Source of the DNA: Ruegeria sp. THAF57
GTDB lineage: Bacteria > Pseudomonadota > Alphaproteobacteria > Rhodobacterales > Rhodobacteraceae
Assembly (NCBI RefSeq): GCF_903914075.1
Contig: NZ_CAIWNQ010000004.1
Span: forward strand, 62,001 to 126,000
Direction: 5' to 3'
DNA: 64,000 nt
Position 1 is the stretch's first letter, and each line of letters starts with the position of its first letter. The notes under the pieces are model-generated. The model was not told the DNA's origin and did not search any database. It saw only the letters and a list, made by a program, of their open reading frames with translations. Below are positions 2 through 49,171 of this stretch, piece by piece. The position numbers and the translations under genes are program-made.

Positions 2-442
2 CTGCTGGGGTTTGGTGCCCATATGACGATCATCGAAGATTACGACCCCTCGTTGCCGTTGGCCTATGGCGACCCGGATCAGTTTCTGCAAGTTGTGCTG
101 AACTTGTTGAAGAACGCGTCGGAAGCAGCTGATCCCAAAGGGGGAACAATCCGGCTTCGCACGTATTTCGAACATTCCTTCCGACTGCGGCGCAGCGATG
201 GATCGGGGCATTCGCTGCCGCTACAGATCGAAATCATGGATGACGGGCCGGGTTTGCCGGACAAGATTCGCAGCGACATTTTTGACCCGTTCGTGTCGGG
301 CAAGGAAAACGGCACCGGCCTTGGGTTGGCGCTGGTGAGCAAGATCATCTCGGACCATGACGGCTGGATTTCCGCCGACTCGGTGCCGGGTCGCACGGTG
401 TTCCGCATCTCGCTGAGGCGGGCGCCAAAAGACGCAACATAG
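2..442 (+). CDS. ntrB: Nitrogen regulation sensor kinase NtrB (3' part only)
   Basis: This is the C-terminal ATPase part of the NtrB (GlnL) histidine kinase, which phosphorylates or dephosphorylates NtrC according to PII signalling of nitrogen status. The frame is open from the window edge, so the PAS and H-box regions lie outside. Visible are the N-box (NLLKNASEA), G1 (DDGPGLPDKIRSDIFDPF) and G2 (GTGLGLALVSKII), the three ATP-binding signatures of HATPase_c. It is followed after 39 bp by ntrC in the same direction, the canonical partner. Identity is firm because of the gene order; the real start cannot be seen. Confidence 0.93.
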   Translation: MLGFGAHMTIIEDYDPSLPLAYGDPDQFLQVVLNLLKNASEAADPKGGTIRLRTYFEHSFRLRRSDGSGHSLPLQIEIMDDGPGLPDKIRSDIFDPFVSGKENGTGLGLALVSKIISDHDGWISADSVPGRTVFRISLRRAPKDAT

Positions 443-27321: not shown

Positions 27322-29136
27322 TTACTCTTCGAACCACCAGACCTGCGGCATATACTCGGGCCCGTCGCCGTAAATTGGCAGAGTTTCCGGTTGCTTCAGT
27401 TCTTTGGCGTGCGCGATCCGTCCGACGTCGAAATTCCAGATCGGAATGACGTACCGACCTGCCGTCAACACGCGGTCCAAGGCGCGGGTGGCGGCAACGA
27501 AGTCCTCATGGCTTTCTGACGCAAGCATGGCATCAATTAATCCGTCCACAGCAGGTGAGGCGACGCCCATCAGGTTGCGTGTGCCGGGCGTATCGGCATT
27601 TTCACTTCCCCAATACAGTCGTTGTTCGTTGCCCGGCGATAACGAGAGGGCGCGTCGGAAAAACGTCATGTCAAAATCCAGATCCGAGGTACGCCCCGTG
27701 AATTGCGCGCTGTCTACCTGTTCTGTTGATACCTGAATCCCCAGACGTTCCAGCGCTCGGCTATAGATCTCGATGGCGGTCTCGCCTTCGCTATCGCCCT
27801 GTTGCAGCAACACGTTCAGCGTGAACGCATCACCGTTTGCGTTGCGAAGGACGCCGTCCTGAATGGTCCAGCCTGCGTCGGACAGCAGCTTGGTCGCTTT
27901 ACGGATGTTTGACCGGTTGCGGGCCGAGCCGTCACCTTCCGGCAGGACGTATCCCTCAAGCGTTCCGGGCGGCAGGTCTGCGGCGTAGGGTTGAAGCAGC
28001 TCTTCCACGCGGCCAGTCGCCGCGCCCGGCTGCATGGCGAGATCGGAGCCCGAGAAATAGGACGTGATCCTGGGCTGCGCCCCGCCGGTGATCGTGTCGT
28101 TGATGAACTCAAAATTGAAAGCCAGCGTCAGAGCTTCGCGAACGCGCCAGTCGTCGAAAGGCGCTTTGCGGGTGTTCATGACATAGCCGGTCATACCCGA
28201 TGGCTTGCCATGAGGGATTTCGGTTTTTACTACATCGCCGCGCTGAACGGCTGGGAAGTTGTACTGTGTTTCCCACTTGTCTGCATTGAATTCGCGTACG
28301 GCGGTCAGCTCACCGGCTTTGAAGGCCTCAAACAGAACGGTGCCGTCCCCGTAGAATTCGATCCGCATCTCATCAAGGTTCATCGTACCCCGACGGAATG
28401 GAACATCGCTTCCCCAGTAATCGGGGTTACGCCGCAGATTGACGTATCGTCCCGGCTCATAACTGTCGATTACATAGGGGCCTGTGCCTACGGGAATATC
28501 GTGCAGTGTGGCATTGGCAAAATCCTTACCGTCCCATTGTGCCTTTTGCAGGATCGGGCGCAGACCGGCGATCAAGGCCAGCTCGCGGTCGGGCTCATTG
28601 AAGGTGATCCGCACGGTGCGCGGGCCGGTTGCTTCGATGCTGTCGATCTTGCCCCAAAGACCGCGATACCGCAGATGCCCTTCGGTTCCCAAAATCTCAT
28701 ACGACCAGATGACATCATCCACGGTGACGGGTGTGCCGTCCGAAAACAGTGCCCCTTCGCGCAGTGTAAATTCGACCCAAGACCGGTCCGGAGCGGTCTC
28801 AACTGATTCGGCCAACAAGCCATAAAGTGTGAAAGGTTCGTCCCAAGATCGCCCCATCAGGCTTTCATGCGTCCAAAACCGCAATTGCCAGGGAGACGTC
28901 CCTTTTTGCACAAACGGGTTCAAACTGTTATAGCCGCCCGTATTTCCGAAAACGACTTTCCCGCCTTTGGGCGCGTCGGGGTTTGCGTAAGGCAGAGACA
29001 CAAAATCCGGTGGTAGGGCGGGCTCTGCGTACATAGCTATGCCATGCGCCGATTCTGCACTGGCGATTGCGGCCCCCAAAAGGAAAGTGATTCCCGTGAT
29101 CACTGGGCGTGCGGGTCGTAGAAAATCGGGGCTCAT
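27322..29136 (-). CDS. ABC transporter family-5 (oligopeptide) substrate-binding protein
   Basis: A periplasmic peptide or microcin-type binding protein. The 604-residue product has a Sec signal peptide (hydrophobic ITGITFLLGAAIASA, cleaved near 28) and the SBP_bac_5 pattern: SLNPFVQKGTSPWQLR early, TPVTVDDVIWSYE near 130, PVGTGPYVIDSYEPGRYVNLRRNPDYW near 215 and RVREALTLAFNFE near 320. Length and the ESLMGRSWDEPFTLYGLLAESVE stretch resemble the YejA branch. No permease or ATPase genes are nearby, so it must work with a transporter encoded elsewhere. A start near the ATG at 29136 puts the signal peptide in place. Confidence 0.88.
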   Translation of the reverse strand: MSPDFLRPARPVITGITFLLGAAIASAESAHGIAMYAEPALPPDFVSLPYANPDAPKGGKVVFGNTGGYNSLNPFVQKGTSPWQLRFWTHESLMGRSWDEPFTLYGLLAESVETAPDRSWVEFTLREGALFSDGTPVTVDDVIWSYEILGTEGHLRYRGLWGKIDSIEATGPRTVRITFNEPDRELALIAGLRPILQKAQWDGKDFANATLHDIPVGTGPYVIDSYEPGRYVNLRRNPDYWGSDVPFRRGTMNLDEMRIEFYGDGTVLFEAFKAGELTAVREFNADKWETQYNFPAVQRGDVVKTEIPHGKPSGMTGYVMNTRKAPFDDWRVREALTLAFNFEFINDTITGGAQPRITSYFSGSDLAMQPGAATGRVEELLQPYAADLPPGTLEGYVLPEGDGSARNRSNIRKATKLLSDAGWTIQDGVLRNANGDAFTLNVLLQQGDSEGETAIEIYSRALERLGIQVSTEQVDSAQFTGRTSDLDFDMTFFRRALSLSPGNEQRLYWGSENADTPGTRNLMGVASPAVDGLIDAMLASESHEDFVAATRALDRVLTAGRYVIPIWNFDVGRIAHAKELKQPETLPIYGDGPEYMPQVWWFEE

Positions 29137-29215
29137 TTTGGAAACAATCCTGCTCTGGCCTTATTTTGTTGGGATTCATCGTACCGATGATTTTTCTTCT
29201 TTTCAAACTTTTAGC

Positions 29216-29244
29216 TTGGACGAAGGCGTGGAATTGCTTATAAA
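29216..29244 (+). promoter_or_regulatory. Sigma-70-type promoter before a candidate sRNA
   Basis: TTGGAC at 29216-29221 and TATAAA at 29239-29244, separated by exactly 17 bp: four of six and five of six consensus bases at ideal spacing. It points to the compact hairpin region that follows and to no long ORF. Confidence 0.65.
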
Positions 29245-29250
29245 GGGTGC

Positions 29251-29326
29251 ACTGCTCGATAGGTTTCTTGCCTGTATGAAACCTGCCTCAATAACTTAAC
29301 GCCCGCTTCGTGCGGGCGTTTTTTTT
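29251..29326 (+). ncRNA. Candidate small RNA (about 76 nt)
   Basis: The region lies between the divergent starts... on the plus strand after the peptide-binding gene and before bdhA. It begins about 7 nt after a good -10 box, folds a first hairpin AGGTTTC / GAAACCT (29261-29267, 29278-29284) with a 10-nt loop TTGCCTGTAT, then a linker CTCAATAACTT, and ends in a 9-bp GC-rich terminator hairpin with a T8 run. Promoter, size, internal stem-loop, single-stranded linker and U-tail together are the standard layout of an Hfq-type trans-acting sRNA. The short ORF crossing it shows no protein-like composition. Confidence 0.65.
29298..29326 (+). terminator. Strong rho-independent terminator
   Basis: A perfect 9-bp stem AACGCCCGC / GCGGGCGTT with loop TTCGT, then six further Ts (eight Ts in a row counting the stem). 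No protein gene ends upstream on this strand, so it should terminate the candidate sRNA at 29251. Confidence 0.92.
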
Positions 29327-29428: not shown

Positions 29429-30202
29429 ATGAGCCTTAAGGGAAAAACGGCAATCATAACGGGGTCGAACTCGGGGATCGGATTGGGGGTTGCTCGTGAA
29501 TTGGCCAAGGCCGGCGCAGATGTGGTTCTGAATTCCTTTACCGACCTTGACGAAGATCACGCCCTTGCTGCGGAAATCTCTCAGGAGACTGGCACCAACG
29601 CGCGCTATATCAAGGCAGATATGTCCAAGGGGGACGAATGCCGCGCCCTGATCGAACAGGCCGGGGTCTGCGATATCCTTGTTAACAATGCGGGTATTCA
29701 GCATGTCTCGCCGATCGACCTGTTTCCGGTCGACAAGTGGGATGCAATCATTGCGATCAACATGAGCTCGGCCTTTCACACGACTGCTGCCGCTCTGCCG
29801 ATGATGCGAAAGGCAGGATGGGGTCGTGTGGTCAATATCGCGTCGGCGCATGGGCTGACCGCCTCTCCTTATAAGGCAGCGTATGTCGCGGCGAAACACG
29901 GGGTCGTGGGGATGACGAAGACAATTGCACTTGAGACCGCGCAGGAACCAATCACCTGCAACGCGATTTGTCCGGGCTATGTGCTGACGCCTTTGGTGGA
30001 CGCTCAGATTCCGAACACGATGAAGGAATACAACATGAGCCGCGAGGACGTCGTGAAGAACGTCCTGCTGGAGCGGCAGCCGTCGAAAGAATTTGCAACT
30101 GTCGAGCAACTGGGCGGGACCACGGTTTTCCTGTGCTCGGACGCTGCGGCGCAGATCACGGGGACGACGATTTCCGTGGATGGCGGCTGGACGGCTTTGT
30201 GA
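29429..30202 (+). CDS. bdhA: D-3-hydroxybutyrate dehydrogenase
   Basis: A short-chain dehydrogenase that interconverts 3-hydroxybutyrate and acetoacetate with NAD, used in polyhydroxybutyrate turnover. The 257 residues show the cofactor motif GSNSGIG (about 11-17), NNAGIQH, the catalytic Ser in NIASAHG, and YVAAK near 153-157. The insert HVSPIDLFPVDKWDAIIAINMSSAFHTT and the terminal DGGWTAL match the BdhA subgroup. AGGGAGAG precedes the ATG. The patatin gene downstream often accompanies it in this bacterial group. Confidence 0.92.
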   Translation: MSLKGKTAIITGSNSGIGLGVARELAKAGADVVLNSFTDLDEDHALAAEISQETGTNARYIKADMSKGDECRALIEQAGVCDILVNNAGIQHVSPIDLFPVDKWDAIIAINMSSAFHTTAAALPMMRKAGWGRVVNIASAHGLTASPYKAAYVAAKHGVVGMTKTIALETAQEPITCNAICPGYVLTPLVDAQIPNTMKEYNMSREDVVKNVLLERQPSKEFATVEQLGGTTVFLCSDAAAQITGTTISVDGGWTAL

Positions 30203-48890: not shown

Positions 48891-48965
48891 TGGCTCCGGC
48901 GGTAGGGATCGAACCTACGACCAATTGATTAACAGTCAACTGCTCTACCGCTGAGCTACGCCGGA
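48891..48965 (-). tRNA. tRNA-Asn (GTT), copy 1
   Basis: A 75-nt cloverleaf on the minus strand: acceptor TCCGGCG pairs with CGCCGGA, D-arm AGCTCAGCGGTAGAGC, anticodon loop CTGTTAA with anticodon GTT, T-arm with GGTTCGATCC, and an encoded 3' CCA. It is identical to the copy at 49097-49171. Confidence 0.97.
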
Positions 48966-49096: not shown

Positions 49097-49171
49097 TGGC
49101 TCCGGCGGTAGGGATCGAACCTACGACCAATTGATTAACAGTCAACTGCTCTACCGCTGAGCTACGCCGGA
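49097..49171 (-). tRNA. tRNA-Asn (GTT), copy 2
   Basis: Identical 75-nt gene to copy 1, with encoded CCA, 131 bp upstream of it on the same strand. The intervening sequence is unrelated to that upstream of copy 2 apart from the -10 box. Confidence 0.97.

Follow-up and report, generated by a model that had tools for sequence, protein, structure and literature searches.

The closest described system is the mraZ leader of R. sphaeroides together with the RNAs that derive from it or act on it. According to the accessible parts of the corresponding reports, a 206-nt RNA termed UpsM is terminated within this leader and is cut by RNase E at position 694,720, which gives a 130-nt product (PMC6238624). 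The cleavage requires Hfq, RNase E and either RpoHI or RpoHII, and UpsM, which ranks first in abundance among the sRNAs of R. sphaeroides with about 60% of the Hfq-bound sRNA, is described as a Rhodobacteraceae-wide RNA linked to Hfq and RNase E (PMC5089854, accessible part). A second RNA, the RpoH-dependent StsR of 72 nt, binds UpsM and promotes its cut (PMC8307010, as far as its text is accessible), and the sequence of a StsR probe, 5'-GGACAGTGAAGGTAGAACGG-3', is printed in the accessible portion of PMC11354728. For the RpoHI and RpoHII promoters of R. sphaeroides, the available text of PMC3441632 describes TTG at -36 to -34 as common to both and A at -12 as strongly conserved, with C-37 and T-9 specific for RpoHI and C-14 and T-13 for RpoHII. 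The Rhodobacteraceae (roseobacters, Paracoccus, Rhodobacter) are abundant in the sea and in soil, and in the literature examined a single sRNA of a single species connects the stress response of these bacteria with cell division.

The locus analyzed here lies in a 64,000-nucleotide stretch of DNA from Ruegeria sp. THAF57 (hereafter, the window). An initial annotation, made from the sequence alone, had read a short intergenic segment of it as a stand-alone sRNA gene with a near-consensus promoter and a terminator. The elements of the locus are as follows.

27322-29136, minus strand: neighbouring gene for a SBP_bac_5 solute-binding protein (Pfam PF00496), pointing away from the sRNA
29215-29220, plus strand: -35-like CTTGGA, 18 nt before TATAAA; TTG at -36 to -34 and C at -37 if +1 is 29252
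29239-29244, plus strand: -10-like TATAAA (sequence, alignment of relatives)
29250-29326, plus strand: intergenic sRNA gene; predicted transcript of about 76 nt, from about 29251 to the T run
29251-29258, plus strand: conserved 5' end ACTGCTCG (alignment)
29261-29284, plus strand: hairpin 1, arms AGGTTTC/GAAACCT, 7 bp, 10-nt loop TTGCCTGTAT (predicted fold)
29269-29285, plus strand: pairing region TGCCTGTATGAAACCTG, loop and 3' arm, perfectly antisense to the mraZ/dcw leader (UpsM)
29285-29297, plus strand: linker GCCTCAATAACTT, predicted to be single-stranded (alignment, leader duplexes)
29298-29326, plus strand: intrinsic terminator AACGCCCGC-TTCGT-GCGGGCGTT followed by eight T (sequence, compensatory changes)
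29429-30202, plus strand: neighbouring 3-hydroxybutyrate dehydrogenase gene (NCBIfam TIGR01963, above cutoff), downstream of and on the same strand as the sRNA

Elsewhere in the window, two tRNA-Asn(GTT) genes with equal scores occupy 48894-48965 and 49100-49171 of the minus strand, about 134 nt apart.

TTGGAC (29216-29221), the 17-nt spacer and TATAAA were all found where the initial annotation had placed them, as were the loop-exposing hairpin (arms 29261-29267 and 29278-29284, loop 29268-29277), the 9-bp terminator stem (29298-29320) and the eight T (29319-29326). The 76-nt RNA had a predicted folding energy of -26.3 kcal/mol, compared with a shuffle mean of -14.1 (z -4.75), and none of 200 shuffles equalled it. 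Considered alone, promoter and terminator lie within chance expectation: the region holds ten terminator-like sites against a shuffle mean of 8.0 (sd 3.2), which is no excess, and the sRNA terminator has the longest stem among the ten. A coding function was rejected: each of the three forward frames contains a stop within the 77 nt. As to the assertion that no protein gene uses this terminator, an open frame of 86 aa (29039-29299) does end there, but it varies in length between 27 and 129 aa across 43 genomes of the same genus (86 aa in 12 of them) and is therefore an unlikely user of the terminator. The stretch 29285-29326 combines an A/U-rich segment with an intrinsic terminator and its U run, a trait of Hfq-type sRNAs, and the A/U-rich part of the linker has the appearance of a putative Hfq-binding site.

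What sets the element far above chance is its conservation, that is, its presence across the family, an invariant 41-nt block, divergence immediately beyond the T run and a terminator with compensatory changes. With the 77-nt gene as the query, matches at E≤0.001 were obtained in 384 of 394 Rhodobacteraceae genomes, a sample of nearly one genome per genus (383 of 393 sampled genera), and in 345 of the 347 better genomes (≥90% complete, ≤5% contaminated); at least 25 of the matches listed were identical to the window over the full 77 nt. No match at this threshold was found in G225 and G247, both of which are ≥90% complete. In an alignment of 50 sequences (43 from the same genus, the window included, and seven from other genera), the block 29251-29291 was invariant in all 50 and divergence set in right after the T run. 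A longer query of 151 nt matched 54 of 54 genomes of the genus, that of the window included, and 7 of 7 other family genomes of its sample, and gave nothing convincing in 40 genomes from other families of the same class (best E 0.004, terminator part only). When 25 weak matches were re-examined, the 41-nt block was mostly near-intact and altered in a few, e.g., G122, G151, G194, G259 and G319 (insertion). A search for the exact 36-nt core returned at least 118 stretches, and the 80 titles listed belonged to Rhodobacteraceae, Paracoccaceae, Rhodobacterales, genera known as such and undetermined Alphaproteobacteria; these titles are the basis of the family name used here.

The initial annotation had named the stems as the feature to be compared among relatives, and they proved to be conserved. 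Among 61 sequences, hand-chosen from 120 distinct ones with the exact 36-nt core, two-sided compensatory changes occurred in seven of the eight pairs of terminator helix 2, and the whole structure showed 70 cells with a two-sided change versus 15.0 in shuffles. Hairpin 1 was invariant throughout this set, which proves nothing by itself because the rows were picked for the exact core; the 50-sequence alignment, the 394-genome search and the re-examination of weak matches are free of this bias, and the arms GTTTC/GAAAC were retained in the divergent rows that cover them. Conservation and terminator covariation therefore indicate a real, selected RNA gene. The reading as an independent RNA of about 76 nt that ends at its own terminator is supported, and the observation behind it confirmed: the invariant block begins at A29251, close to the start proposed in the initial annotation and thus to the predicted 5' end, and the RNA's own promoter and terminator are kept in the relatives examined.

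The solute-binding-protein neighbour was kept in 105 of 111 and 84 of 86 loci with enough flank (two locus sets). In several genomes (G171, G222, G248, G265, G273, G378 and others) the sRNA query matched twice at E≤0.001, which may reflect second copies or split contigs. In four Paracoccus sequences (NZ_CP038206.1, NZ_CP035287.1, CP038202.1 and NZ_CP038196.1), the sRNA lies on a large secondary replicon of 1.5-2.2 Mb, and in P. ferrooxidans it is flanked by an ABC transporter substrate-binding protein and 3-hydroxybutyrate dehydrogenase.

The description of the promoter as near-consensus did not hold for sigma-70. TTGGAC agrees with TTGACA at three of six positions in register, and the promoter is missing from the list of a sigma-70 consensus scan; sigma-70 use is possible. 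Of 200 distinct upstream regions taken from loci with the exact core, 191 contain the motif TTG-19..21-[TC]AT, 178 of the 200 with a spacing of 20, and in several divergent genera the -10 element was CAT or TAT behind C-rich bases, RpoH-like by eye. If +1 is 29252, the window has the TTG (29216-29218) and the A (A29240) of the RpoH rule as given in the accessible text of PMC3441632; of the paralog-specific bases listed there, C-37 and T-13 are present and T-9 and C-14 absent, a mixed picture. The promoter appears RpoH-like (TTG-20-YAT), and control by RpoH is likely.

Back to back with the sRNA promoter lies a divergent sigma-70-type promoter, TTGAAA-17-TACGAT (29178-29206, minus strand), which serves the solute-binding-protein gene. 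A conserved upstream block, TTTTCAAACTTTTAG, was considered as a regulator site of the sRNA and rejected, being the -35 region of this divergent promoter; of 107 distinct regions holding the block, 104 keep the TA of the promoter's -10 element in place. The conserved block TTTTCAAACTTT, immediately upstream of the sRNA promoter, is likewise part of the solute-binding-protein promoter. Between the two promoters there is an inverted repeat, TCATCG-TAC-CGATGA followed by TTTTTC (29176-29190), the arms of which co-vary by eye in some relatives.

The initial annotation had recommended the loop 29268-29277 for target prediction, and this advice proved fruitful: loop and 3' arm together (29269-29285) form a perfect antisense match of 17 nt to the leader of mraZ, a gene of the dcw division cluster; it is from this leader that UpsM derives. 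In the genome of the window, the match is found on the strand opposite to mraZ, about 190 nt upstream of that gene, and the mraZ leader RNA is therefore complementary to the sRNA loop and 3' arm. It was also the sole exact 15-nt antisense match outside the sRNA gene when this genome was searched with a 15-mer from the loop and 3' arm. Among the matches listed, 50 of 54 genomes of the genus had a further exact 17-nt match to 29269-29285. The match recurred at a similar place, often shorter, in 45 diverse leaders (from 23 of 23 and 22 of 25 genomes of two sets, three being without a MraZ match). Leaving out the 57-nt leader of G110, TCATACAGGC of the leader site was kept in 34 of 44 leaders, the 12-mers starting at -174 to -229, and was also kept in several leaders without the neighbouring R2 hairpin. 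The 14-mer GGTTTCATACAGGC was present in at least two copies in 230 of the 394 family genomes, one copy being the sRNA gene and the second being counted wherever in the genome it lay; as a control, the 14-mer read backwards (not complemented) occurred twice in all 394 genomes together.

Duplex energies pointed the same way. When the sRNA of each genome was paired with the leader of that genome, no more than 5 of 100 dinucleotide-shuffled leaders were as good in 39 of 42 genomes; in 28 of the 42, not one was (a count that also leaves out G225 and G247, in which no sRNA was found); G122, G151 and G406 fell outside the best 5% of shuffles. The prediction is crude, as its optimum in G122, G151 and G410 is not the conserved site, and the leader of G101 has no recognisable site yet beats its shuffles. 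In the genome of the window, cofolding with a 125-nt leader piece gained 18.5 kcal/mol over the separate RNAs, and in some genera (G216, G146) GCCTC of the linker lengthens the leader pairing. Covariation gave no support to the pairing, because substitutions in the leader mostly break pairs: in 16 leaders with one to three changes, 25 changes broke a pair and two kept one, mostly at the outer two Ts. The change in G194 was compensatory by eye, but its own sRNA gained only 1.8 kcal/mol over the common form. The leaders of G216 and G259 are short of one or two site nucleotides, and a nearly continuous duplex is still predicted for both.

Further targets in the genome of the window, searched with the loop/3'-arm 15-mer, were weaker candidates only, and none equalled the mraZ leader. 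Two of them lie early in open frames. The first, located about 76 nt inside the gene of a bacterial sugar transferase (PF02397; L303 1501-1515, G000:C8:192499-192513), has one G-U pair; the second, located 15 nt inside an alpha/beta-hydrolase frame (L310 1501-1515, G000:C8:62186-62200), has two mismatches. Most of the other six matches with two mismatches were within or antisense to open frames.

The 5' end of the sRNA may touch the same leader. The conserved R2 loop of the mraZ leader contains CGAGCAG, the complement of CTGCTCG (in 29251-29258); CGAGCAG is present in 26 of 45 leaders, and in leaders that also have CATACAGGC the starts of the two sequences are 43-54 nt apart. A second contact, which would make the pairing two-pronged around the RNase E cut, is possible, and we offer it only as a suggestion, since the conservation of the R2 loop may have other causes and speaks for the contact weakly. 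By eye, about half of the 45 diverse leaders have the R2 loop GAGCAGACATCCCCCCAGGTG with hardly a change, and others have lost it; an Rfam search at this loop gave no family at threshold.

One genome of the sample, G143, we take to be R. sphaeroides, based on 100% identity to R. sphaeroides PufL over 282 residues, an exact match of the StsR probe and agreement with published coordinates. Its ortholog of the window sRNA, at C4:1,443,996-1,444,072, is 94% identical and has the same neighbours by eye. Its leader site, 694,689-694,706, lies inside the domain R1, 13 nt ahead of the RNase E cut at 694,720 (position from the accessible text of PMC6238624). The match has one internal mismatch (12+5 nt), so that the longest exact complement is 12 nt, and the duplex energy modestly beats shuffles, having been equalled by 4/100, 6/300, 16/300 and 3/200 of them in separate tests. 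The StsR probe, as printed in the accessible part of PMC11354728, has a unique match in this genome when up to two mismatches are allowed; the match is perfect and lies at C4:858,073-858,092, in a terminator-ended intergenic locus of other sequence. The probe sequence is absent from the window sRNA. Because the probe maps elsewhere, the window sRNA is a second RNA, and one more widely detected than StsR: the latter was found in 296 of the 394 family genomes at E≤0.001, versus 384 for the former, and in the genome of the window at this threshold it gave no match. These misses may reflect divergence, given that the StsR sequence is more variable. Within the probe locus, 11 nt are exactly complementary to the start of UpsM (694,648-694,658) and 12 nt to a stretch near the start of mraZ (694,880-694,891); the duplex energy of this locus with UpsM was equalled by 12 of 200 shuffles; energy alone would therefore miss the target of StsR. 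Judged by sequence, the window sRNA is nearly universal in Rhodobacteraceae and distinct from StsR.

We consider it probable that this RNA is a trans-acting, stress-induced sRNA which pairs with the UpsM/dcw leader RNA and promotes its processing by RNase E. RpoH-type sigma factors would turn the sRNA on in response to heat, oxidative stress or stationary phase; with the help of Hfq, its loop would open on the CAGGUUUCAUACAGGCA of UpsM and of the nascent dcw mRNA, invade the R1 domain and expose or position the adjacent RNase E site. As the duplex sits just upstream of this site, cleavage by RNase E is proposed to follow; UpsM and the dcw leader RNA would be processed and division-gene expression would drop. 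StsR would act on the same leader RNA from a different site. Among the points against this reading, (i) UpsM cleavage is already credited to StsR in the accessible text of PMC8307010, (ii) the match in G143 carries an internal mismatch, with modest energies, and (iii) substitutions in the leader site mostly break pairs. As a tentative extension, about which we are somewhat doubtful, the dcw leader could be a two-sRNA stress node, with StsR at the start of R1 and the window sRNA in the R1 interior (perhaps also at the R2 loop, via its 5' end), jointly bracketing the RNase E site; the window sRNA would then be the older, family-wide division brake and StsR its more variable partner.

The pairing could also serve the opposite end, although we regard this as unlikely: UpsM might be a sponge, an abundant leader RNA that titrates the sRNA during growth, other mRNAs being the targets that matter. 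Such a role would suit the abundance of UpsM and its share of about 60% of the Hfq-bound sRNA (PMC5089854, accessible part), the 41-nt invariant block, which exceeds the need of a single target site, and the two weaker sites early in open frames (L303, L310). It is opposed by the 15-mer search, in which no other site of the genome equalled the mraZ leader match and the other two-mismatch matches were mostly inside or antisense to open frames, and by the fact that the leader site belongs to the dcw mRNA too.

Action in cis is improbable. The element would then form an attenuator-bearing 5' leader of the 3-hydroxybutyrate dehydrogenase gene, which lies 102 nt further on, and that gene does follow in 85 of 107 and 67 of 85 loci with enough flank (two locus sets), in a promoter-terminator-gene order that is also the UpsM-mraZ arrangement. 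However, 22 of 107 and 18 of 85 exact-core copies have no dehydrogenase within the tested distance, the stretch past the T run is not conserved in the 50-sequence alignment, and the antisense match would be left unexplained. We give still less credence to the shared 17-mer being a DNA motif (a protein binding site) or a coincidence, with the sRNA acting elsewhere. The leader substitutions, which ignore pairing rules, would agree with it, but a coincidence is very unlikely in view of 34 of 44 leaders and 230 of 394 genomes against two reversed 14-mers, and a DNA motif fits poorly both with a site within the transcribed leader of R. sphaeroides (as described in the accessible reports) and with the nearly continuous duplex predicted for G216 and G259 despite their missing site nucleotides. 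Identity with StsR, a working hypothesis suggested by the common target RNA and seemingly favoured by the RpoH-type promoter and the similar length (72 nt, PMC8307010, accessible part), was rejected and, provided that the printed probe is correct, can hardly be entertained any longer, since this probe maps to another locus of G143, one that has the UpsM/dcw leader complements expected of StsR.

On the preferred reading, that of a stress sRNA acting on the dcw leader, stressed cells may slow division through an sRNA, and the window sRNA offers a defined gene and a base-pairing site that are testable in many Rhodobacteraceae species. The article texts searched, also for the site sequence, mention neither this RNA nor its pairing. 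It may already stand, without a function, in the RNA-seq catalogues of P. denitrificans or Ruegeria. Compared by description only, two kinds of entries come close: 'Intergenic 134' and 'Intergenic 60' of Paracoccus denitrificans, conserved RNA-seq sRNAs of 80-84 nt (PMC5107571, accessible part), and the trans sRNAs of Ruegeria pomeroyi, also RNA-seq sRNAs of a member of the Rhodobacteraceae (PMC4809877, accessible part); either Paracoccus sRNA or a R. pomeroyi trans sRNA could be the window sRNA.

Several known RNAs were compared with the window sRNA and set aside. SorY was rejected by position, its 5' end in R. sphaeroides being 1,632,642 (PMC6238624, accessible part) as opposed to 1,443,996-1,444,072. 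The initial annotation had proposed an Rfam search; it was run, and no family reached its gathering score. The MmgR/suhB family (RF00519) is alike in having about 77 nt, a 5' hairpin and a terminator. MmgR is tied to polyhydroxybutyrate granules, and the window sRNA adjoins a 3-hydroxybutyrate dehydrogenase gene. The family was nevertheless rejected: its score, 24.4 bits against a gathering score of 41, was no better than those of unrelated families, e.g., Leu_leader and Hrs13, and the CUCCCU motif that its consensus carries between the hairpins is absent from the window sRNA alignment. Leu_leader, BjrC1505, RyhB, Trp_leader and Hrs13 (E 0.0004-0.01) were likewise rejected, all being far below their gathering scores; as families of several kinds appeared at once, we ascribe these weak matches to the combination of a hairpin and a terminator. 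The window sRNA is thus absent from Rfam and would make a new, easily built family.

The class to which it is assigned, that of trans-acting stress sRNAs, is already known, and its nearest counterpart remains StsR of R. sphaeroides (formerly RSs0827). Both are short intergenic RNAs with their own terminators and with complementarity to the UpsM/dcw leader, and the RpoH dependence of StsR in the accessible literature has its parallel in the promoter signature of the window sRNA, which is compatible with such control. StsR differs in its sequence, in its locus and in the position of its complements, which lie away from the site of the window sRNA at 694,689-694,706. UpsM, in turn, would be a partner in the same proposed circuit, i.e., the proposed target of the window sRNA and not its homolog.
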